From contig JALSHE010000055.1 in the NCBI GenBank assembly GCA_026982415.1, forward strand, positions 1 through 64,000: DNA of 64,000 bases, given 5' to 3'. The position numbers and the translations under genes are program-made. Below the pieces are notes generated by a model that was not told the origin of the DNA, searched no databases, and saw only the letters and a list, made by a program, of their open reading frames with translations. This DNA is from Robiginitomaculum sp. (GTDB lineage Bacteria; Pseudomonadota; Alphaproteobacteria; Caulobacterales; Maricaulaceae). Positions 1 through 17,684 of this stretch are shown here, piece by piece (the first letter of the stretch is position 1; the number at the start of each line of letters is the position of its first letter).

Positions 1-283
1 AGCCGACAATGTTCGCGGCCTTCTAAAGGCCAGCCCGCTTTATGATTGGCGGGTGGCGGATATGGATGCTTATCTGGAAACCCATTCTGATATTCCGCTT
101 AATGCACTGCACAAGCAAAACTTCCCATCTATTGGTTGTGCGCCGTGTACCCGTGCGGTCAAGCCCGGTGAAAACGATAGGGCAGGGCGCTGGTGGTGGG
201 AAGACGGGCAACAAGAATGCGGCCTGCATGTGGGTGCCGACGGGCGCTTGGTGCGCACAAAACCAACGAAAGAAGTATTATGA
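1..283 (+). CDS. cysH: Adenylylsulfate (APS-type) reductase, C-terminal part
   Basis: This is the 3' end of an assimilatory APS/PAPS reductase; the start lies outside the window and the frame begins at base 2. The product reduces activated sulfate to sulfite with thioredoxin electrons. The visible C-terminus holds SIGCAPCT, then [12 protein letters not shown], then QECGLH. The ECGLH cysteine is the catalytic one of the whole family; the extra CxPC pair is typical of the [4Fe-4S] APS reductases (Pseudomonas/plant type) and is absent from E. coli-type PAPS reductases. It overlaps cysD by 4 bases, so the two are translationally coupled. Identity is firm; the APS preference is inferred, because the partner CC pair lies outside the window. 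Confidence 0.93.
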
Positions 284-1182
284 ACACTCTCTCACACTTG
301 GATGTATTAGAAGCCGAAGCCATCCACATTATGCGCGAAGTTGTGGCCGAAGTAGAAAACCCGGTGATGATGTATTCGGTGGGCAAGGACAGTGCGGTTA
401 TGTTGCACTTGGCGCTCAAAGCATTTGCGCCGGGCAAGCTGCCATTTCCGCTTTTACATGTGGATACGGGTTTTAAATTTCGCGAGATGATTGCCTTTCG
501 TGACCAGATGCAAAAAGACTACGGCTTTGAACTTATCGTCCACCAAAACCAAGATGGTCTGGATGCGGGTATCAACCCATTTGATCATGGTTCGGATGTT
601 CACACCAATATCATGAAGACCGAAGGCCTGAAACAAGCACTCGATGCTGGCGGGTTTGATGCGGCCTTTGGCGGGGCGAGGCGCGATGAAGAAGTTACAC
701 GCGCCAAGGAACGGGTGTTTTCGTTTCGGACAAAGACCCATGGCTGGGATCCAAAAAACCAGCGGCCAGAACTCTGGAGCCTGTATAATGCACATAAAAA
801 TGCCGGGGAGAGTATCCGCGTATTCCCCATGTCCAACTGGACGGAATTTGATGTGTGGCAATATATCTATGAGCAAAACATTCCTATCGTGCCGCTCTAT
901 CTAGCGGCTAAACGCCCGGTGGTTGAGCGAGATGGTGTGTTGATTATGGTCGATGATGATCGTTTGCCTTTGCTGGACGGCGAGGTGCCTATGCAGAAAA
1001 TGGTACGCTTTCGCACATTGGGCTGTTACCCGCTCACGGGTGCGGTGGAAAGTATGGCGGCGACTTTGCCAGAGATTATTCAAGAAACTTTGGTCGCCCG
1101 GGTATCGGAACGCTCAGGTCGGATGATTGACCACGACCAAGCCGCCAGTATGGAAAAGAAAAAACGCGAGGGGTATTTCTAA
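280..1182 (+). CDS. cysD: Sulfate adenylyltransferase subunit 2
   Basis: Small catalytic subunit of ATP sulfurylase, which makes APS from ATP and sulfate with CysN in the cytoplasm. The 300-residue length matches the family (E. coli about 302). The PP-loop motif [14 protein letters not shown] appears near residue 30, followed by the family blocks GGARRDEE and the C-terminal [13 protein letters not shown] chose the ATG at 280, which overlaps the cysH stop; an upstream in-frame start would lie inside cysH. The stop overlaps the cysN start by one base. Part of a cysH-cysD-cysNC operon. Confidence 0.96.
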
Positions 1183-3113
1183 TGTCCCAAGATATGACAG
1201 ATGGGCAAAAAGCTTCCCAAAAGGCAATTGGCGAAGTTAAAAATTATATAGACGCTCAGCGCCAGAAAACTCTGTTGCGGTTCATCACTTGTGGCAGTGT
1301 CGACGACGGTAAATCTACCCTGATCGGGCGGCTACTTTTTGAGAGTAAACTTTTGTTCGACGACCAGCTGGAGAACCTGAAAAACGTCTCCAAAAAGCTC
1401 GGCACTCAGGGCGACGATATTGATTTTGCCTTACTCGTAGACGGCCTTGCCGCAGAGCGCGAGCAGGGGATTACCATTGATGTTGCTTATAGGTTTTTCA
1501 ATACGGAACAGCGCAAATTCATCGTCATCGACACACCAGGGCACGAACAATACACCCGCAATATGGCCACGGGCGCGTCACAAGCTGACCTCGCAGTCCT
1601 CATGGTTGATGCCCGCCAAGGCCTGACAACCCAGACAAAACGCCATGCCTATATCGTCCAGTCTTTGGGCGTTAAACACATCGTTGTCGCCATCAATAAA
1701 ATGGATTTGGTCGAATACGGCCAAGACAGATTTGACGAATTGGTCAAAGATTTCCGCGCGTTCAGCCAGAAAATTGACATGGAGGCTTTCACCTCTATCC
1801 CCATGTCAGCCCTGAAAGGCGATAATGTCTTGGAGGCCTCCGCGCACATGGATTGGTACTCAGGCCCGACTTTGATGCAGCATTTGAACACGGTATCCGT
1901 AACCGACAAAGTTGCAGGAAAACCGTTCCGTATGCCCGTGCAATGGGTCAACCGGCCTGATCTGGATTTTCGCGGCTTTGCAGGGCGGGTGGTTTCTGGA
2001 TCATTGAAAGTCGGAGATAAAATCACTTCCATGCCGTCTGGCAAAACGTCCAAGTTAGCGCGTATCTACACGGTGGACGGTGATTTGGACGAAGTGCTGG
2101 CCGGGCAATCCGTAACTTTGTGCCTAGAGGACGAAATCGACGCTAGTCGCGGTGATATTCTGTGCGCAGGGGACGCAAATTTGCCGCAGCAAAGTGATAA
2201 TTTCCATGTGAAAATCCTGTGGATGTCCGAGCAAAAGCTTAGGGTCGGGCGGACATTCCGTATGAAAATTGGTGCCCATACGGTCAATGCCTCGGTCACT
2301 CAAACCAAACATGTCATCGACGTCAACACCTTGCAGCATATCAGCGCAGAGACTCTGGAGCTGAACGAAATTGGCGAATGTATTGTGCGAACCGAACGCG
2401 CGATTTGCTTTGAGCCTTACGCAGATAACCGCGAAATGGGCGGGTTCATTTTGATCGATAAAATCACCAATGCCACCATGGCTATGGGGTTGATTACAGA
2501 TGCGCACAGCGGTGCAGACCTCGACCAACGCACTGAGGAGCTGACTATAGGCCGGGCAGATCGAGCGGACCAAAAACGCCAAGTGCCATTAACAATATGG
2601 TTCACAGGTCTTAAACGCTCCGGTAAAACCTATATCGCCAATGCGCTTGAGCGTAAATTGTTCGCGCGCGGTTGCCACAGTTTTATTCTCGATCCGGGCA
2701 ATGTTTTACCGGGCATGAGTGAAGACCTGGACTTTGAAAGTTCGGATCAAATCGAAAACGTCCGCCGGGTCGCCCATATGTCGAAATTGATGAATGATGC
2801 GGGGCTAATTGTCATGACCTGTTTCACTTCGCCGCTTAGTTTCGAGCGCCGCATGGCACGGCGTATTATTGGTACGGAAAATTTTCTTGAGATCCACATG
2901 GATACACCCATAGAAATTTCTCTTGCCCAAGATAGCCAAGGTTATTTCGAGAAGGCTAGACGCGGAGAGATTAAGAATGTTGCCGGTATTGATATGCGGT
3001 TCGAACCACCCAAAGCCGCGAACCTAACATTCAGCCTGCGTAAACATTCCCCCGAAGATGCTGCGGATATAATTTTAGCCAAGCTTACCGAAATGGGCGT
3101 GTTGGGCGGGTAG
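1182..3113 (+). CDS. cysNC: CysN-CysC fusion: ATP sulfurylase GTPase subunit with a degenerate APS kinase domain
   Basis: 643 residues. The N-terminal two thirds is the CysN GTPase: P-loop GSVDDGKST at residues 38-46, DTPGHEQYTRNM, and NKMDL, followed by beta-barrel domains. From about residue 467 it continues as an APS-kinase-like domain beginning IWFTGLKRSGKT, whose Walker A still fits GxxxxGKT. The kinase half is altered where active enzymes are nearly invariant: the DGDNVRHGL motif reads DPGNVLPGM (about residues 504-512), FISPxR reads FTSPLS, and the RDPKGLY motif reads QDSQGYF. The CysN half is expected to work with CysD; the kinase half may be inactive or changed in function. Last gene of the cys operon. 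Confidence 0.93.
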   Translation: MSQDMTDGQKASQKAIGEVKNYIDAQRQKTLLRFITCGSVDDGKSTLIGRLLFESKLLFDDQLENLKNVSKKLGTQGDDIDFALLVDGLAAEREQGITIDVAYRFFNTEQRKFIVIDTPGHEQYTRNMATGASQADLAVLMVDARQGLTTQTKRHAYIVQSLGVKHIVVAINKMDLVEYGQDRFDELVKDFRAFSQKIDMEAFTSIPMSALKGDNVLEASAHMDWYSGPTLMQHLNTVSVTDKVAGKPFRMPVQWVNRPDLDFRGFAGRVVSGSLKVGDKITSMPSGKTSKLARIYTVDGDLDEVLAGQSVTLCLEDEIDASRGDILCAGDANLPQQSDNFHVKILWMSEQKLRVGRTFRMKIGAHTVNASVTQTKHVIDVNTLQHISAETLELNEIGECIVRTERAICFEPYADNREMGGFILIDKITNATMAMGLITDAHSGADLDQRTEELTIGRADRADQKRQVPLTIWFTGLKRSGKTYIANALERKLFARGCHSFILDPGNVLPGMSEDLDFESSDQIENVRRVAHMSKLMNDAGLIVMTCFTSPLSFERRMARRIIGTENFLEIHMDTPIEISLAQDSQGYFEKARRGEIKNVAGIDMRFEPPKAANLTFSLRKHSPEDAADIILAKLTEMGVLGG

Positions 3114-3183
3114 AACACGCCAGCATTGGCCTTGTTTTTTCGCGTAAAACCCGCTATCAGCTTTACGCAACAACGGATATATC

Positions 3184-3825
3184 ATGACACAAAAACGAAT
3201 TGCTATAATTGGCTGTGGTGCGCAAGCCAAATATGCCAGCGAGATATTCCATCTCTCGCCTAACCACACCGTCACCCATGTGTTGTCGCCGGAAAACATA
3301 ACCGAACTTGATTGGTTGCCCCATTATTCAGGTGAACATGTAATCGGATATGCTCTGGTTGAAGGTTTAATCGCAAACTACGAAATTGACGGTGCAATCG
3401 TTTGCATTGCTAACAAACAAGAAAAAGCGGAGATATTTGCCACATATGTAGACGGCAAAATCGAAACCGTCTCTGCAATCCACCCCAAAGCGGTTATCGC
3501 TAGCTCTGCCACACTCGGCGCAGGCGTTATCATCAATGCGGGCGCAGTTATTCAACCCTTGGCCACCATAGGGCGTGGCGCTATGATTCATGCCAATGTC
3601 ATCGTTGAACATGATTGTAAAATCGGAGCGTGGACCAATCTGGCGCCGGGTTGCCAACTTGCAGGCTGGGTGCAGGTCGGAGATGCGGCGACCATCTTTA
3701 CGGGTGCCAGTGTCGTGCCAACTATAAAAATAGGTAAAAGAGCTATTGTCGGGGCGGGCGCAGCTGTTATACAAGACGTTGAAGATGATGCGGTAGTGGT
3801 CGGAGTTCCCGCCAAGCCATATTAA
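3184..3825 (+). CDS. NeuD/PglD-family sugar O- or N-acyltransferase
   Basis: 213-residue acyltransferase of the sialic-acid NeuD / PglD type. The N-terminus is a small Rossmann-like domain (RIAIIGCGAQAKYASEI, with a modified glycine loop). From about residue 95 it becomes a left-handed beta helix of hexapeptide repeats (ATLGAGVIINAGAVI, GRGAMIHANVIVEHDCKIG, and so on) and ends VVGVPAKPY. The family transfers acetyl from acetyl-CoA onto amino or hydroxyl groups of nucleotide or lipid-linked sugars. It starts 70 bases after the cys operon and opens the surface-glycan patch; the next glycosyltransferase follows after 14 bases, suggesting one transcript. The exact substrate cannot be read from sequence. 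Confidence 0.85.
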   Translation: MTQKRIAIIGCGAQAKYASEIFHLSPNHTVTHVLSPENITELDWLPHYSGEHVIGYALVEGLIANYEIDGAIVCIANKQEKAEIFATYVDGKIETVSAIHPKAVIASSATLGAGVIINAGAVIQPLATIGRGAMIHANVIVEHDCKIGAWTNLAPGCQLAGWVQVGDAATIFTGASVVPTIKIGKRAIVGAGAAVIQDVEDDAVVVGVPAKPY

Positions 3826-3839
3826 GAATAGGGGTAAAT

Positions 3840-4991
3840 ATGGGCTTGCTTGCTGATATATATGTTCTGGCAAACTTGAAAATGCAAACAGCCAAAGTCA
3901 AGAAAAAGGACGACAGAGCCTTGCGATTTCTGCAAAAAGTGATGTTGAAGTCAGATAGCCTGCAAAAGCTGGCTTTTAAAAAAGCTCAACAGAAATTGAG
4001 CGAACGGTTTTTCAGGTATACTTTTTTTGATAATCGCAAGAAAAGGTTTATGAAGTCTGTAGCAAGGCGAACTAGAACTGAACAGGTAGAAATAGTTTTG
4101 GCGCATGATCTTAAGGCTGTGAAAGTTGCTCGCAAATTTGCGAAGCGCAATAATGCTGTATTTTTCTTTGACCTGGTGGAATCAACTTTTTCAAATTTAG
4201 CTGGCCTGCAGCCGACTTTTTTTTATAAGAAGAACGCTAAACAGGCTGAACGTATCGCTGCCCAGGCAGACTACATCTTATCGGGAGATCCATATTTGTC
4301 ATCAGAGTTCGTTAAGCGACAGCGAACAAAAATGCCCGTTTTAGTCTTAAATGGTCAGGACGAGGTGGTGGAATCTAGGCGTGTCATTTCTATAAGAGAG
4401 CGTATAGCCGATAATACTAATAGGCCTATTGTTTTATATATCGGTGTGGTTTCTAAACTTCGGGGTATCGAGCAAATTATTGATGCTTTTTCTCTTATTA
4501 ATACTGACGCTTTGTTAGTTATTATGGGGCCAGGTGGGGATGTCTACAGGGAGGAAGTTTTAGCTCAAATTCGATTGCTAGGCCTTGAAAATAGGGCTTT
4601 CGTCCTGGAAGGAGTGCCGGAACGTGATATGGTTCCTGTTAGTGCTACGGCTACTATAGGTATTTCACCAATTCTGTCAGGAACTGGAAATGCGGGTTTA
4701 GTCTATAACAACAAAATGTTTCAGTATTTGGCTGCGCACTTACCTATACTTACAACGAATTGTCCAGGGCCAGGTGGTTTCGTCAAGGAGCATGAGATTG
4801 GGTATGTTTATGAGGAAGAGAATGCAACAGACTTGGCAAAAAAAATAGATCGCGCCTTATCCAAAGATGAGGAGTTTAATTTAAAAATCCAAAACAATCT
4901 GCCGATTGTTGCCAGAAAATATGCATGGGCAACGCAAGAAAACAACCTTAGGCAACTTATTCGAAGCGCTGAACAACAAATACAAAAATGA
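3840..4991 (+). CDS. Glycosyltransferase, GT4-like
   Basis: 383-residue GT-B-fold glycosyltransferase. The C-terminal half carries a classic family-4 pattern: IVLYIGVVSKLRGIEQIIDAF at the start of the nucleotide-sugar domain, then VFLEG-like FVLEGVPERDM, then a sugar-nucleotide loop with NNKMFQYLAAHLPILTTN, where EX7E-type enzymes have the donor-binding acidic residues. The N-terminal 60 residues are very lysine-rich. Expected to add a sugar in lipopolysaccharide, capsule or exopolysaccharide synthesis on the cytoplasmic face of the membrane. Base composition is clearly more AT-rich than the flanking cys and rpoH genes, suggesting recent acquisition. Confidence 0.8.
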   Translation: MGLLADIYVLANLKMQTAKVKKKDDRALRFLQKVMLKSDSLQKLAFKKAQQKLSERFFRYTFFDNRKKRFMKSVARRTRTEQVEIVLAHDLKAVKVARKFAKRNNAVFFFDLVESTFSNLAGLQPTFFYKKNAKQAERIAAQADYILSGDPYLSSEFVKRQRTKMPVLVLNGQDEVVESRRVISIRERIADNTNRPIVLYIGVVSKLRGIEQIIDAFSLINTDALLVIMGPGGDVYREEVLAQIRLLGLENRAFVLEGVPERDMVPVSATATIGISPILSGTGNAGLVYNNKMFQYLAAHLPILTTNCPGPGGFVKEHEIGYVYEEENATDLAKKIDRALSKDEEFNLKIQNNLPIVARKYAWATQENNLRQLIRSAEQQIQK

Positions 4992-5001
4992 CGGTTTAAA
5001 A

Positions 5002-6432
5002 ATGGTTTCCAATACACCCAAAACTTCAGATATGCGAGCCGTTCGTAAAAGCTTGCCCAGACGTATTGTAAATAAGTCTGCACGTATCATACGTTTGTTT
5101 TTTGGTGTCGTTAATGTTCCCAGTACCGCAAAACTTTTGGAAGATTTTTCCAGGATCACGTATCAAATTGACGGTAAAAACAAAAAATGTTTCACACAAG
5201 TTAATAATATTAATAACCTCACAAATGGAAATAGTGGGTTAGTTCCCGAAGTTTTTAACAAAAGAATGAACTCTTATCTAACAACTATGGAAAGAGCATT
5301 GGTCGCTCAAAAAAAACAAATAACCTCTCTTGAGAGAGCGAAAAACGCGTTGATCCAATCAGAAGTTTTGTCAGGGCTAGAAGCCGTCCAATCCGATGCC
5401 AGTTCCGGGCAAATTCTCCATAAAAAAATGGGGACAAGACACAATCTCAAGCAAACTCTGGATTTAGTTGATAATTGCCATAGTGGAGCCTCTATTTTAA
5501 TTTTAAATGTTACTTCTAATCAAGGTATTCTTCTGGCCAGCGCTCTTGAAAGGTTCGAAGGTTGCCTTGTTGATTGTCTGGTATTAAAGCCGGAACTTGG
5601 CCAATGTGGTATTACCCTTCCGTTCCCAGAAAACCCTAGGCAATTATACATGTTCATTGATTGGGCTTATGACAAATACGAAATTGTACATACTGTCGGG
5701 TTTTCTAGTGAGGCAAAATTCCTTTTGCTCTATGATGTTTTAACAGAAAAGTTTGGGAACAGGCATCTCATACATTGCCTGAATCCTGACGAGCACATTG
5801 CTTATTTGCACTATATGGCTGATAGGAAAGCCCAAAAAAAACCGTCAGGCGCGGATGAAAAAATAGATCACAAATTATTGTTAAGCTGTATAAACCATGC
5901 CGATAATACACCGTATGATGAAGACCTAATTCCTCTAATTCCCAATAGCATGCCTGTTGGTAAACTGGGTTCTTTTGCCGTAAATAATGTATTAAAAGTG
6001 CTTATAATAGCGGAAACTGAATTATGTATGAAAATTGGAAAAGCACTTGCTCATGAAGAGATGGAAAACTTTAAACTGATTGTATTGAACAATTTTTTAG
6101 TAGACGGGTATATGGCAGATTTTGATACAAATATTAATTGCTTGATAGATAAGGCGGATATTGTTCTAGATTACTCTCAATCCCATGAATATGGCAATCA
6201 TGGTTTAAACGCCATGCTTGCAGGTAAAATTGTTATTTGTTCTGGTGAAGATACGGGAGATCCAATAATAAAATCCAGTGTTGAATATCTGGTGAATGTG
6301 GTGCGCAGTATGTTGGGGGAACCGCAAAGCCTGGAGAGGTTAAGGTTTGATATTTTGGAATATGCCATAGCCCGACATAATCCCGAGACAACGGTAAAAA
6401 AATTGCGGCTTATATATAATTCTATCGATTAG
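5002..6432 (+). CDS. Uncharacterised protein with coiled coil and GT-B-like C-terminal domain
   Basis: 476 residues; I do not recognise a named family. The start was taken at the ATG of MVSNTPKTSD, 10 bases after the previous stop, because an upstream in-frame ATG would sit far inside the preceding gene. The N-terminal 130 residues are basic and contain a predicted helix-rich stretch (MERALVAQKKQITSLERAK). The C-terminal 250 residues alternate hydrophobic strands and helices like a glycosyltransferase-B fold (KVLIIAETELC, ADIVLDYSQSHEYGNHGLNAMLAGKIV), the latter resembling the donor-binding segment of GT4 enzymes without clear catalytic acids. A divergent or structural glycosyltransferase is the best guess. 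Confidence 0.5.
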   Translation: MVSNTPKTSDMRAVRKSLPRRIVNKSARIIRLFFGVVNVPSTAKLLEDFSRITYQIDGKNKKCFTQVNNINNLTNGNSGLVPEVFNKRMNSYLTTMERALVAQKKQITSLERAKNALIQSEVLSGLEAVQSDASSGQILHKKMGTRHNLKQTLDLVDNCHSGASILILNVTSNQGILLASALERFEGCLVDCLVLKPELGQCGITLPFPENPRQLYMFIDWAYDKYEIVHTVGFSSEAKFLLLYDVLTEKFGNRHLIHCLNPDEHIAYLHYMADRKAQKKPSGADEKIDHKLLLSCINHADNTPYDEDLIPLIPNSMPVGKLGSFAVNNVLKVLIIAETELCMKIGKALAHEEMENFKLIVLNNFLVDGYMADFDTNINCLIDKADIVLDYSQSHEYGNHGLNAMLAGKIVICSGEDTGDPIIKSSVEYLVNVVRSMLGEPQSLERLRFDILEYAIARHNPETTVKKLRLIYNSID

Positions 6433-6486
6433 CGACATGGGAAAAGGTGCCGTTTGGTGGATATAATGATATTTTTTTCTTGCATT

Positions 6487-6534
6487 ATAAGGGATAGGGT
6501 GTATTTCTAAATAAGGGATAAGGTGTACTGCTAA
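6487..6534. repeat. 24-bp imperfect tandem duplication
   Basis: Two adjacent 24-base units (6487-6510 and 6511-6534) begin ATAAGGGATA and differ at three positions. They lie in the gap before the coiled-coil miniprotein. They could be a duplicated regulatory site or simple slippage; no motif was recognised. Confidence 0.7.
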
Positions 6535-6557
6535 AGAACGCAAAATAAGAGAATATT

Positions 6558-6743
6558 ATGGTTAATAATGTTAAGAAGCAATCATTAGAAAGTCTTCGTA
6601 AGCAGTTGGAAGAGACAGAAGTTCGTGCGCAGCTTGCTGAATCTCGCATGCGAATATTGAATGCAAATTTTCAGGCAGAGCGCGCCCGTTTACTTTCTGA
6701 AGCCATTAGCAATAAAAATATTATGGACTTTGTCAGGATGTAG
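6558..6743 (+). CDS. Small coiled-coil protein, 61 aa
   Basis: 61-residue, highly charged, helix-forming peptide. Residues 8-50 (for example SLRKQLEETEVRAQLAESR) show a heptad-like spacing of leucine/alanine, so a short coiled coil is likely. A weak purine-rich ribosome site (AAGAGAA) precedes the ATG. There is no signal peptide. It sits between the GT-B-like protein and a truncated glycosyltransferase; it may be a remnant of the coiled-coil head of a larger glycan-assembly protein, or a genuine miniprotein. Function unknown. Confidence 0.4.
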   Translation: MVNNVKKQSLESLRKQLEETEVRAQLAESRMRILNANFQAERARLLSEAISNKNIMDFVRM

Positions 6744-6769
6744 ATTGCTCGTGTAGCAGGTCGAGCTAG

Positions 6770-7054
6770 ATGAAGAAAAAAGCCTCCATTGTTAGCTTCA
6801 AGTTAGTTGAGCATCATCCTAGGATAAACCGAATTGCTAATGCCTTTGTAAAGGAAGGCTATGATGTTGTTGTCTATGGTTTGGGGCGGCAAGAGGGCGA
6901 ATTCACCAATGAGAATGGGGTGAAGTTTGTTCTGTTCAAGAACGATTTTGTTATGTCAGAATTTTTGAAGTCTAGTTACATGGTTTTACCAAAATTAATA
7001 AAATTGGCAGCTGGTTTGTTCATTTTGACTTACTGTAAAATCCGAAAAATTTGA
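6770..7054 (+). pseudogene. Glycosyltransferase N-terminal fragment
   Basis: A 94-codon frame that reads like the first Rossmann domain of a GT4 glycosyltransferase: KASIVSFKLVEHHPRINRIANAFVKEGYDVVVYG is the usual acceptor-domain opening (hits on HxxxxRI..A..L...GH.V.V). It stops at 7054 just where the next gene begins, with no donor-binding domain, and no continuation is visible in other frames. The simplest reading is a glycosyltransferase truncated by the recombination that brought in the ABC-like gene. Whether the stub is still translated is unknown. Confidence 0.5.
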
Positions 7055-7059
7055 TTTAT

Positions 7060-8838
7060 ATGGGCTTTCGCGTTCAAATATCGCGCTTTCGTGAATTTTT
7101 GAGCGTGGCCGTTTTTATCTTCCGTAATGGTTTTAAAGCTAGTCCCGCAGGGGCGCTTCTGAGTGTATTCTTCGATAGTCTATCTTTTATATTTCTGGTT
7201 GGCGCGGCGTTGTCGTTGATTACATTTCAGCCTAATGCGCATACGCAGATACCTGATTTCCTCAAGGCTTACGTAAATCAGGACAATATATTTCTGCTGG
7301 GATGTACGGGATTGATACTATCACTCTTTTTGAACGCAATATTTAAGTTCTTGTCGAGCATTGTAGTCAATAAGTCTTTACCTGCAATAGAGAGCTATTT
7401 TTATAAAATCACTGCAGAAAAGATAGCACAATCAAAATTAAATGACCTAGTCAAACTTCACATAAATTATGACGATTTTTTATTGCGCGAACTAAATATC
7501 AATTCACGCTTTGCAATGATGGTTTATCGTGGCCTGATTTCAGTCACATTTCCAATGATATCATTAATAATACTCTTCCCATTACTTTTGTTATCAAGCT
7601 TAGTTGCAACGCTTATGTTAATTGGAGTTTTCATAGCGGTTTTACCCGTTTATTATCTGATTAACAAGCGCAGCAATCGCGTTACATTGGACATTGATAC
7701 AACGAATTTGCTGGTTAGTAATTCTAGGCGCCAATCATCGCGAAAAATCATTGACCCAAATTTTGACGTGGCTGATCTTAAAGCCGCTATGTCAAATGCA
7801 TTGCAGGATGGGAACCGGGATGTCCGTAAGTACTTTCACTTATACGGGGAGAGGTTTACATTGGCGCAGGGGACGTCTTTGACCAACTCTTTGGTGCTTA
7901 TTTTAGCCATTGCAATATTAGGCGTTATGACCTTTTGGGATACCGGGTCCTTGAAGTTAGATGTTGCGAAGTTTGTCACTATACTGATTGTGCTCAGGCA
8001 AGTTCATACTGTGATTGGACGTGGGTTCATAGCTGTAAACATCATGAGTCGTTTCTATTTTAAATTATTGAAACTAAGTAAAATTTATAAACTGGCTTCC
8101 GAGGACACCGCCAATGCCCCTGCAGGGAAACTTCTACCAAGCAAGGGCTTTAAGTTTACCAATTTGAGCACTAAAGAGCCTGTTGTTGTGGACTTTTTTG
8201 ATAATCGGGCAGTTCTATTCTATGATAGATTCGAGTTAACAAGGTTCACAATTGTTAGGACTTATCCACCCAATAATCTCTCTTTGCAGATTGAATTATC
8301 CCGTAAAAAAGTCTGTGTGATTAAGGAGCTAATATCGGGCTTCACCTTTACAGCTGATGATAGTCACGCGTGCAAAAAACAGGTAAACAAATATATAGAT
8401 GTCATTGCGTTATTGGTGTCACAAAATGACATATACCGGCAGTGGGACAGCCAGCAGGATGACCTCGCCAGCGCATTTGTAAAGTCGGTCATGGGGGTTC
8501 AAAGGTACGTGTTGCCACGACACATCAAAATCATAGAAAAAGTTATTGGCCTTGTACAAGCAATTAAAAATACTACGTCAGAGATAGTATTATTGGACGC
8601 TCGTGTTTTCCTTCAATTTGGGGGGGAGAAACATGATGTGGTTTTGGAGATGTTAGAGGCTGAAATTGACAAGGTTGTAATTATCAAGTTGAACAACGCG
8701 AACTATGATTTTGCTCAAGACAGGTTCGTTGTCGTAGGCGGCATAGGTGAGGCTGAAGGCATAATAAGGTATGGTGAGTTGCCCAGTTTAATTGTAGGGG
8801 ATAAGCAACCTGTAGAGGATGATGAATACGAATTTTAG
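7060..8838 (+). CDS. ABC-exporter-like membrane protein with degenerate nucleotide-binding domain
   Basis: 592 residues. Residues 1-340 hold about six hydrophobic segments arranged as in type I ABC exporters, with the long pair around 165-210 (ISLIILFPLLLLSSLVATLM). The remaining 250 residues align in order with an ATPase domain but lack its chemistry: no GxxGxGK Walker A is present near residues 360-390, no LSGGQ signature is seen, the Walker B is EIVLLDA (about 508-514) with Ala where the catalytic Glu should be, and the H-loop His is missing from VVIIKLNN. It still ends with a D-loop-to-tail pattern DRFVVVGGIGEAEG. An ATG at 7060 was preferred to a TTG at 7051. A non-transporting scaffold, or one partner of a heterodimer, is possible. 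Confidence 0.65.
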   Translation: MGFRVQISRFREFLSVAVFIFRNGFKASPAGALLSVFFDSLSFIFLVGAALSLITFQPNAHTQIPDFLKAYVNQDNIFLLGCTGLILSLFLNAIFKFLSSIVVNKSLPAIESYFYKITAEKIAQSKLNDLVKLHINYDDFLLRELNINSRFAMMVYRGLISVTFPMISLIILFPLLLLSSLVATLMLIGVFIAVLPVYYLINKRSNRVTLDIDTTNLLVSNSRRQSSRKIIDPNFDVADLKAAMSNALQDGNRDVRKYFHLYGERFTLAQGTSLTNSLVLILAIAILGVMTFWDTGSLKLDVAKFVTILIVLRQVHTVIGRGFIAVNIMSRFYFKLLKLSKIYKLASEDTANAPAGKLLPSKGFKFTNLSTKEPVVVDFFDNRAVLFYDRFELTRFTIVRTYPPNNLSLQIELSRKKVCVIKELISGFTFTADDSHACKKQVNKYIDVIALLVSQNDIYRQWDSQQDDLASAFVKSVMGVQRYVLPRHIKIIEKVIGLVQAIKNTTSEIVLLDARVFLQFGGEKHDVVLEMLEAEIDKVVIIKLNNANYDFAQDRFVVVGGIGEAEGIIRYGELPSLIVGDKQPVEDDEYEF

Positions 8839-8901
8839 AGCATGATACCCGGAGGCCACTTTGGGGATCAATTGTCGGTTCGGGATTTTTGGTTAAATTG
8901 A

Positions 8902-9876
8902 TTATCCGACTTCAATAAGTCCGGTATTTTGCGCTGCGTTCAGCATAGCTTCTTGCAATTTCTCAAATGCCCGCACTTCGATTTGACGGATGCGTTCGCG
9001 GGAAACCTCGTAAACTGCAGCAAGTTCTTCCAAAGTTTTAGGCTTTTCGGACAAGCGGCGTTCTTGTAAGATATGCTGCTCGCGTTCATTCAGGTTTTTC
9101 ATGGCATCTTTGAGTAATTCCATGCGGGCATCATGTTCTTGAGAATCGGCAACCACGGTTTCCTGGCTGACATAATTGTCGTCCTCTAGCCAGTCTTGCC
9201 ACTGCCCGCCGCCGTCTTCACCGCCAATTTTCACATTGAGAGACGCATCTCCGCCGCCGCCCATACGCCGGTTCATAGATATAACTTCTTCTTCCTTGAC
9301 GTTCAGATTGGTCGCAATTTTCTTGACTTGGTCCGGATGCATATCACCGTCTTCAATGGCTTTCATCTCGCCTTTCATACGGCGTAGATTAAAAAATAAT
9401 TTTTTCTGGGCGGCTGTTGTGCCCATCTTGACCAAAGACCAAGAGCGCAGCACATATTCCTGAATAGCCGCACGGATCCACCACATGGCGTAGGTAGACA
9501 AACGAAACCCTTTGTCCGGGTCGAACTTTTTGACCGCCTGCATCAGGCCGACATTACCCTCTGATATAACTTCACCAATGGGCAGGCCGTAGCCCCGATA
9601 GCCCATGGCGATTTTTGCCACGAGGCGCAGGTGGGATGTCACCATTCTTTCGGCTGCGGCACTGTCTTGATGGGAGACCCAGCGTTTGGCCAACATAAAT
9701 TCTTCGTCGCGCTCCAGCATAGGGAATTTGCGGATTTCGGTTAAATAGCTCGACAAACCTTGCTCCGGCGAAAGCGCGACGGACAAACTCATATTGCCGG
9801 TAGATTTGCCCGCTTTCAGTGTTGTCTTTGCTGTTTTTTTTATAGCGGTTTTCTTATGCGTAGTGTCTTTAGTCAA
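8902..9876 (-). CDS. rpoH: RNA polymerase heat-shock sigma factor (sigma-32)
   Basis: Group-3 sigma-70 protein directing RNA polymerase to heat-shock promoters. Region 2 shows VISEGNVGLMQAVKKFDP and RLSTYAMWWIRAAIQEYVLRS; the RpoH box appears as AAQKKLFFNLRRMKG; region 4 ends with VSRERIRQIEVRAFEKLQ. I place the start at a TTG (9876-9874) because a perfect GGAGG (9884-9888) lies 7 bases upstream; this gives 324 residues. The usual family start would be the ATG at 9792 (MSLSVALSPEQG), so this reading adds about 28 Lys/Thr-rich residues. The gene is monocistronic. Confidence 0.95.
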   Translation of the reverse strand: MTKDTTHKKTAIKKTAKTTLKAGKSTGNMSLSVALSPEQGLSSYLTEIRKFPMLERDEEFMLAKRWVSHQDSAAAERMVTSHLRLVAKIAMGYRGYGLPIGEVISEGNVGLMQAVKKFDPDKGFRLSTYAMWWIRAAIQEYVLRSWSLVKMGTTAAQKKLFFNLRRMKGEMKAIEDGDMHPDQVKKIATNLNVKEEEVISMNRRMGGGGDASLNVKIGGEDGGGQWQDWLEDDNYVSQETVVADSQEHDARMELLKDAMKNLNEREQHILQERRLSEKPKTLEELAAVYEVSRERIRQIEVRAFEKLQEAMLNAAQNTGLIEVG

Positions 9877-9957
9877 AATCTTTCCTCCCAATACCCAAGA
9901 AGCGGGCTTGAATGTATATATAGGGGTAATCATAGGCGATTAAAAGAGAGGCTGGAT

Positions 9958-12227: not shown

Positions 12228-12905
12228 ATGAGTAAAAAAAATCCACAAGCATATCCGTGTCAGATATATTTGATAACCCCTTCGAAGATCGACGACCTTG
12301 GTGCATTCGTTGTCTTGCTAGAGCAGGTCTTGGCGGCGGCACAAGTGGGTTGTTTGCAGTTGCGCCTCAAAGATACACCTCGCACAAGAATAGTAGAAGT
12401 GGCCACAGCGCTACACCCAATCACCCAAGCCCATGATACGGCTTTGATCATTAATGATGATCCATCTATAGCTGCCGAAACGGGCGCCGACGGGGTGCAT
12501 TTGGGGCAAGCTGATCTGCGCAAAGTAGATATTAAATCTGCGCAACAAATGCTCAAGCCGGGTGCAATTATTGGTGTGACCTGTCATAATTCGAAAGATT
12601 TAGCGTTCAAGGCAGGTTCAGGTGGCGCCCATTATATTGCCTTTGGATCGTTCTTTGAAAGTACGACAAAACCGGATGCACCTCCGGCAAATTTGGAGCT
12701 TCTGACATGGTGGCACGAAACAATGGAAATACCGAGCGTGGCCATAGGCGGCATCATGGTGGAGAATGCCGAGGCGGTGATCGCGGCGGGCGCGGATTTT
12801 ATCGCGCTATCTTCGGGCGTTTGGAACTATCAAAAAGGCCCGGTACAGGCCGTAAAATTGTTGTCGGATTTATGTGCGCGCTTTACGCGGCCACAGCAAA
12901 TTTAG
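12228..12905 (+). CDS. thiE: Thiamine phosphate synthase
   Basis: 225-residue TIM-barrel enzyme joining HMP pyrophosphate and thiazole phosphate to thiamine phosphate. Family landmarks are all visible: LQLRLKD near residue 40, LIINDDPSIAAETGADGVHLGQ, IGVTCHNSKD, and the C-terminal AIGGI phosphate-binding turn. Start ATG at 12228 has no strong ribosome site. No TPP riboswitch was recognised upstream. The Sel1 gene begins inside its last 34 bases. Confidence 0.93.
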   Translation: MSKKNPQAYPCQIYLITPSKIDDLGAFVVLLEQVLAAAQVGCLQLRLKDTPRTRIVEVATALHPITQAHDTALIINDDPSIAAETGADGVHLGQADLRKVDIKSAQQMLKPGAIIGVTCHNSKDLAFKAGSGGAHYIAFGSFFESTTKPDAPPANLELLTWWHETMEIPSVAIGGIMVENAEAVIAAGADFIALSSGVWNYQKGPVQAVKLLSDLCARFTRPQQI

Positions 12906-16367: not shown

Positions 16368-17050
16368 CCCCGGGCACCAAATAACGCACTGCCAACCCTT
16401 ATATGGGTTGCACCGAATTCTATTGCTGTCTCAAAATCGTTGCTCATGCCCATGCTTAGATTTTCCATGCCGTTGCGGGCGGCGAGTTTGGCGAGCAGGG
16501 CGAAGTGGGGGCCGGGGGCTTGACCGCTGATGAGTGTACCTGCGGGAGGGATGCACATGAGGCCGCTTGGGTGTAGGTCGTAGATTTGGCGTAGGGTTTT
16601 AATGAAGACGTCCAGTTCGCCCGGTATGATGCCGGATTTTTGCGGTTCTTCACCCGTGTTGACTTGCACGAATAATTCTGGTGTGCGTCCGGTTTTGTTT
16701 ATGGCTTTGACCAGCGCTTTGGCCAGCTTCTCGCGGTCCAGGGTTTCTATGACGTCGAACAATTCGCAGGCGGCCACGGCTTTGTTTGTTTGTAATGGGC
16801 CTATCATACGCAGTTGGATATTGGCGCGGGCGTCGGCAAAACGGTCTTGCCATCTGGCTTGGGCTTCCTGGACTTTGTTTTCGCCAAAGACGTTTTGACC
16901 TGTTGCCAGCATGTCCGCGATGCGGCTATCCGGTTGCTGCTTGGACACGGCGGTTAGGCAAATATCGGTGGGCGTGCGTGATGCCCGCTTGGCGGCGGCG
17001 TCTATCCGGTCTAGGGTGGCGCTGTGTAAATCTTTTATATGAGTATTCAT
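16364..17050 (-). CDS. YggS/PROSC-family pyridoxal phosphate homeostasis protein
   Basis: 228-residue single-domain PLP-binding TIM barrel. The PLP lysine lies in CLTAVSKQQPDSRI near residue 35; FGENKVQEAQAR, MIGPLQTNK, QVNTGEEPQKSG and MGMSNDFETAIEFGATHIRVGSALFG are the diagnostic blocks. It balances PLP and affects amino-acid metabolism. Its ATG overlaps by two bases the ATG of the divergent ThiE/TenI-like gene. Confidence 0.95.
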   Translation of the reverse strand: MNTHIKDLHSATLDRIDAAAKRASRTPTDICLTAVSKQQPDSRIADMLATGQNVFGENKVQEAQARWQDRFADARANIQLRMIGPLQTNKAVAACELFDVIETLDREKLAKALVKAINKTGRTPELFVQVNTGEEPQKSGIIPGELDVFIKTLRQIYDLHPSGLMCIPPAGTLISGQAPGPHFALLAKLAARNGMENLSMGMSNDFETAIEFGATHIRVGSALFGARG

Positions 17051-17684
17051 GGCTTGGACATATACTGGAAATGACAGGCTCGCAAGGGCAGCGACGCGGC
17101 TTTATGGTCGGCGTGTCCGTCCATGCAGGATTGCGCCCTTGGTGTTTATGAGTGATCCTGAGCGCACGCCAGATGTGTTGCGGATCGCGCGAAAATTACC
17201 CTTGGGTGCGACCCTGATTTACCGTCATTTCGGGGCAGGGGATAGGGTCGTGATTGCCGGAGAGTTGCGGCAAATTTCGTTTGCCCGAAATCTGCAATTC
17301 CTTATCGGACAAGATGCGGGTTTGGCCGCGAAAATTGGTGCGGACGGGCTGCATTTACCGGAGCGTGAATTGGGGCAAGGGGTGGTTTTACGGGCGCGTT
17401 ATCCGGCTTGGTTGTTAACGGGGGCGGCACATTCGAGGGGAGGCGTGAAGCGTTGCGCCGAGAACGGATTAGATGCGGCGATCTTATCTCCGGTCTTTAC
17501 CAGTGCGAGCAAGAGCGCATCCCAGCCTATTGGCACGGAAATGTTGGCGGACATAGCCAAAGCCATAAAAATTCCTATTATCGCGCTGGGCGGTATTTCA
17601 GGGGCTACGGCGCCTGAATTATACACAAGTGGTGCTACGGGCATTGCGGGTGTTTCGATGTTTGTGAGCGCACATGACACGTAA
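17049..17684 (+). CDS. ThiE/TenI-like TIM-barrel protein
   Basis: 211-residue relative of thiamine phosphate synthase. The C-terminal phosphate site is recognisable (IIALGGISGATAPELYTSGATGIAGVSMF), as is KIGADGLHLPERE in the middle, but the RLKD and NDD residues that bind substrate in ThiE are not conserved (ATLIYRHFG, FLIGQDAG). A true thiE occurs at 12228, so this is more likely a TenI-like or altered enzyme. The start at 17049 was kept because the extension RLYGRRVRPCRIAPLVFMSD resembles the usual opening of this alphaproteobacterial subgroup. It overlaps rimI by 11 bases. Confidence 0.75.
   Translation: MAWTYTGNDRLARAATRLYGRRVRPCRIAPLVFMSDPERTPDVLRIARKLPLGATLIYRHFGAGDRVVIAGELRQISFARNLQFLIGQDAGLAAKIGADGLHLPERELGQGVVLRARYPAWLLTGAAHSRGGVKRCAENGLDAAILSPVFTSASKSASQPIGTEMLADIAKAIKIPIIALGGISGATAPELYTSGATGIAGVSMFVSAHDT

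Follow-up and report, generated by a model that had tools for sequence, protein, structure and literature searches.

The gene occupying positions 7,060 to 8,838 of the window (the whole stretch of DNA analysed, 64,000 nucleotides from G000, a 2.7 Mb alphaproteobacterial draft genome) encodes a 592-aa protein whose membrane half has ABC exporter topology and from which every recognisable ATPase motif is absent, and which, on the pattern of its substitutions, is kept by purifying selection. The model we propose, tentatively and with a little less than even confidence, is that of a protein derived from an ABC exporter, whose ATPase domain would be kept as a fold and used without ATP, and which would probably act as a homodimer, either as a flippase or transporter or as an anchor for glycosyltransferases. 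The features on which this model is built are collected in Table 1.

Table 1. Features of the cysD-to-7060 gene cluster and of the 592-aa protein (positions in the window)
Feature	Position	Strand	Basis
cysD, cluster start	about 271-1182	+	named from sequence by eye; same order in G003 contig C99
cysNC, sulfate-activation enzyme	1182..3113	+	named from sequence by eye; same order in G003 contig C99
Hexapeptide-repeat acyltransferase	3184..3825	+	PF00132, E 1.2e-17
Group 1 glycosyltransferase	3840..4991	+	PF00534, E 1.5e-19
Protein without a known family, at most 508 aa	4906..6432	+	start overlaps glycosyltransferase gene; partial G003 homologue
94-aa glycosyltransferase-like fragment, directly ahead of 7060 gene	6770..7054	+	weak PF13579 match, E 0.18
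ABC-exporter-like membrane protein without ATPase motifs	7060..8838	+	open frame, 592 aa; orthologue; dN/dS
Six-helix membrane domain, residues 1-345, type IV ABC exporter helix spacing	7060..8094	+	hydropathy layout tests; no Pfam match
Soluble C-terminal domain, residues 346-592, where an ATPase domain would be expected	8095..8838	+	motif scan; spacing pattern; no ABC ATPase profile similarity
Walker-B-like strand IVLLDA, residues 509-514	8584..8601	+	read from sequence and orthologue

An intact reading frame without ATPase motifs

The original prediction described an intact frame encoding a protein with neither Walker A nor LSGGQ, a Walker B ending in LLDA instead of LLDE and no H-loop histidine, and all of this is borne out. 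The frame runs uninterrupted from the ATG at 7060 to the stop codon at 8836-8838, a TTG at 7051 being a possible alternative start. Neither a Walker A (G....GK[ST]) nor a signature-like sequence was found by the motif scan of this frame, and the residues where the P-loop would have to fall (363-426) do not include a single glycine. The residue directly following IVLLD (509-513), at the position of the catalytic glutamate, is Ala514, replaced by a serine in the orthologue described below, and Asn545 stands where the H-loop histidine would be, 32 residues from the Walker B aspartate on the spacing of the intact exporter L007. The type IV ABC exporter feature set (Walker A, signature, Walker B glutamate and H-loop histidine) is absent as a whole from the 592-aa protein, as is the D-loop. 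The other frames contain only two bare GK[ST] triplets, both on the minus strand, so that no frameshift hides the motifs; this possibility is ruled out by the six-frame scan and by the orthologue. A literature search for ABC proteins whose ATPase domain is devoid of motifs found no paper, and a broader search returned work on degenerate sites.

Topology of the membrane half

No Pfam match was obtained for the 592-aa protein at E values up to 10, ABC_membrane (PF00664) and ABC_tran (PF00005) included, and the membrane half has no sequence similarity to ABC proteins by any sequence method used. Its likeness to a type I exporter, already pointed out in the original prediction, holds when the hydropathy layout is measured. 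The hydrophobic peaks lie at residues 45, 86, 179, 283 and 311-317, compared with 45, 95, 183-196, 283 and 313 in one of the ABC exporters that this genome encodes, and lysine and arginine abound in the loops expected on the inner side. The median hydropathy correlation of the membrane half to ABC exporters is 0.70, which falls within the range of these exporters among themselves (0.73), whereas 38 non-ABC membrane proteins did not exceed 0.52 and none of 500 loop shuffles matched the layout. The separation rests mainly on this 38-protein set, from which ABC proteins had been removed by profile: in a first, smaller null set, four segments of two proteins (the same-genome ABC exporter L010 and a 582-aa protein) scored equally high, and a 575-aa and a 1158-aa protein reached 0.69 and 0.59, respectively.

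These measurements bear on the idea that the 592-aa protein would not be related to ABC proteins and would belong to a separate six-helix family having acquired its exporter-like layout by convergence. Sequence similarity to any known family was not found, and a single weak PHROG match covers nothing but a helix, as this idea would have it; however, the layout falls beyond what the other tested membrane proteins show and coincides with the presence of an ATPase-sized C-terminal domain, and we consider convergence improbable.

Conservation and selection

A partial orthologue (82% identity) is present in L003 (contig JALSHM010000454.1), from a second genome of Robiginitomaculum (G003), a genus of Maricaulales. 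It covers residues 262-592, the contig ending on the N-terminal side of this part, and displays the same motif losses. Among the 177 bases differing between the two copies, 109 are at third codon positions, and dN/dS is 0.13 over the whole shared stretch and 0.12 (NG86) to 0.17 (YN00) for the C-terminal domain, the NG86 values being 0.13 for the neighbouring glycosyltransferase, 0.07 for an MsbA-like exporter and 0.06 for cysNC. An orthologue with the same losses and a dN/dS of 0.12-0.17 argue that the losses are due neither to sequencing error nor to decay, ordinary decay being ruled out by dN/dS, in support of the earlier view that selection maintains the protein. Orthologues with normal motifs, named in the original prediction as the case that would speak against it, were searched for and none was found. 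Pseudogene decay or faulty assembly would find some echo in the truncated glycosyltransferase-like ORF directly upstream and in the patchy distribution of the cluster, but this reading is refuted by an orthologue found in an independent assembly, with its differences concentrated at third codon positions and its low dN/dS, unless the two copies, functional for a long time, were both inactivated only very recently; we give it almost no credence.

Within the 592-aa protein, the C-terminal domain is less conserved (83%) than the last two helices, TM5-6 (90%), which is the reverse of the MsbA-like active exporter compared between the same two genomes, where conservation is higher in the ATPase domain (92%) than in the membrane domain (84%). 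The lower C-terminal conservation fits a domain that would have been freed from catalysis, not from function.

Origin of the C-terminal half

The C-terminal half may be of ABC origin, a view weakly supported by its length, its position and a spacing pattern. The original prediction had made it a fully degenerate ABC ATPase domain: the motif losses are real, but the profile tests meant to tie the region to ABC ATPases are negative or marginal. No ABC ATPase match was obtained in Pfam, NCBIfam or PDB sequences, profiles of exporters from related genomes scored it at chance level when compared with shuffles, and the search for ABC homology with hhalign and with ungapped blocks was negative or marginal. 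Global profile alignment to ABC ATPases gave a Z of 2.5, and of 0.6 for the orthologue, and the whole-domain hydropathy is not above chance.

The length and position of the C-terminal half match those of the ATPase domain of ABC half-exporters, and it carries a spacing pattern, from Walker B to the last hairpin, which was defined after the sequence had been seen and which is present in 59 of 68 ABC exporters, in none of two sets of 683 and 236 other proteins and in 3 of 5000 shuffles. The AlphaFold2 models have a very low pLDDT (33 for the full protein, 30 for the C-terminal domain) because the relatives are too few, intact ABC exporters having been kept out of the folding alignment since adding them would impose the ABC fold. 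A Foldseek search with these models gave no meaningful match and no ABC protein; in the C-terminal model, with its pLDDT of 30, the order of the elements (strand pairs, helices, strand, helix, strand, hairpin) resembles that of an ATPase domain, a likeness that counts for little at this confidence.

The same results may be read as the joining of an ABC-exporter-type membrane domain to a soluble domain of other descent, which would have replaced the ATPase domain instead of arising by its degradation, the Walker-B-like strand being a coincidence frequent in alpha/beta folds. The negative or marginal outcome of all the C-terminal profile tests and the missing glycine in residues 363-426 favour such a replacement, but the size and position of the domain suit an ATPase domain and the spacing pattern occurs in 0 of the 919 other proteins tested. 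We hold replacement to be doubtful, and prefer a domain of ABC descent that would have kept its fold.

Genomic context and distribution

The 592-aa gene is followed, on the opposite strand, by an rpoH-like sigma factor gene (named by eye). From the glycosyltransferase onward, the G+C content of the cluster falls to 38-42%, compared with 50% in the rest of the window. The protein of no known family has no match in Pfam, NCBIfam or PDB; the N-terminal portion shares 70% identity with its G003 counterpart, the gene being the fastest-evolving of those compared, and the C-terminal portion looks, by eye, like a group 1 glycosyltransferase domain whose motifs are altered. Two tandem 24-nt copies, 88% alike, lie at 6487-6534, in the AT-rich stretch separating this gene from the 94-aa fragment, and the fragment itself resembles the start of a glycosyltransferase and looks like a truncated remnant. 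Elsewhere in the window, two ORFs lying within 5 kb (12228-12905 and 17049-17684) both appear by eye to be thiamine-phosphate-synthase-like.

The 592-aa protein and its cluster were found in two of about 1,000 genomes searched, G000 and G003. No distant relatives were found in the remainder of the family (137 genomes), in the order, class and phylum samples (nearly 400 genomes each), in IMG/VR or in plasmids, and the few weak distant hits that were inspected had arisen by chance, in proteins of no relation such as a cation efflux protein, an MFS permease and further membrane proteins. The glycosyltransferase was used to look for a related cluster containing an intact exporter; no other genome of the order sample possesses it. 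In G003, the genes from cysD through the protein of no known family are in the same order on contig C99, and the orthologue lies on another short contig, with prfA behind it instead of the rpoH-like gene; the prfA of G000 is on a different contig from the 592-aa ORF. In a further genome, G005, the rpoH-like gene adjoins a distant cysD-cysNC pair (66% and 49% identity) without glycan genes, the cysNC of G003 being 90% identical as against 49% for that of G005, and the other cluster genes have no match in the examined regions of G000, G002 and G005. When positions 1-9933 are set beside the G005 locus (L031), different cysD-cysNC modules are seen next to the rpoH-like gene, as if this were an exchange site. 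The cluster is rare and differently placed in the two genomes, which is what a module that had moved horizontally or been rearranged would show, misassembly of these drafts being another possible cause.

A proposed model of ATP-independent action

Each ATP site of an ABC protein is made of the Walker A of one half and the signature of the opposite half (review PMC7756269). Pairing the 592-aa protein with a canonical partner could therefore not rebuild such a site, and action independent of ATP is what remains. The original prediction had suggested one half of a heterodimer, which the sequence makes unlikely: neither Walker A nor signature is offered to a partner, and each of the five ABC exporters recognised in the genome has its own motifs. 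That the protein would be a degenerate half whose partner supplies the ATPase activity draws on how common heterodimers with one degenerate site are among ABC exporters (PMC7756269) and on the room left for a partner upstream by the contig end, which cuts the cluster at cysD. However, known degenerate halves still complement their partner, whereas both composite sites would be incomplete here; no other ABC exporter gene is present on the contig of the 592-aa ORF, and the five exporters, all with Walker A, signature and Walker B glutamate, are on other contigs, none being an evident partner. We see only a slender chance for this arrangement.

The ancestor of the 592-aa protein would have been a half-size type IV (in the older nomenclature, type I) ABC exporter, of which the ATPase domain would have entirely lost ATP binding and hydrolysis and remained as a folded domain. 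SbmA, in which an ABC-type membrane domain is driven by protons (PMC13316013), runs on a proton gradient; this and the lack of any restorable ATP site lead us to prefer a homodimer working without ATP, which would act on a product of the cluster or hold its glycosyltransferases at the membrane. As a flippase or transporter, the homodimer would be passive or driven by an ion gradient and its substrate would be a product of the adjoining sulfate/glycan cluster; as a scaffold, it would be the membrane anchor of the glycosyltransferases. The 592-aa protein would thus probably either function independently of ATP or assist the adjacent enzymes of sugar assembly.

Comparison with known systems

In its general plan, the 592-aa protein is close to the type IV half-exporters MsbA and PglK, with a length near 600 aa, six helices, long intracellular loops at the same places and a C-terminal soluble domain of ATPase size. 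PglK, like the 592-aa protein, has a glycan gene neighbourhood. The differences from MsbA and PglK are the absence of any detectable sequence similarity and the loss of Walker A, signature, catalytic glutamate, D-loop and H-loop. As in TAP1/2, TM287/288, TmrAB and Pdr5 (PMC7756269), the loss of catalytic residues appears to be maintained by selection, but in these transporters the nucleotide-binding motifs can still be recognised and one site works, whereas every motif has gone from the 592-aa protein. With SbmA/BacA (SLiPT), it would share an ABC-exporter-type membrane domain without ATPase activity, as judged here from the sequence. No SbmA_BacA family match was obtained in Pfam or NCBIfam, and SbmA possesses an extra TM0 and has no C-terminal domain replacing the ATPase, while the 592-aa protein keeps a domain of ATPase size.

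In the known degenerate ABC exporters, at least one ATP site still works, and the SbmA-type transporters are devoid of an ATPase domain. A domain selected without any catalytic motif would, if this is its true nature, reveal a role apart from ATP hydrolysis, and the 592-aa protein would then represent an intermediate in the turn from primary pumps to secondary transporters. Could an ABC exporter lineage have given up ATP altogether while its ATPase domain stayed on in a structural or regulatory role? We hold this to be rather improbable; if so, an ATP-independent glycan flippase or scaffold would take its place between the ABC exporters and the secondary transporters of the SbmA type.
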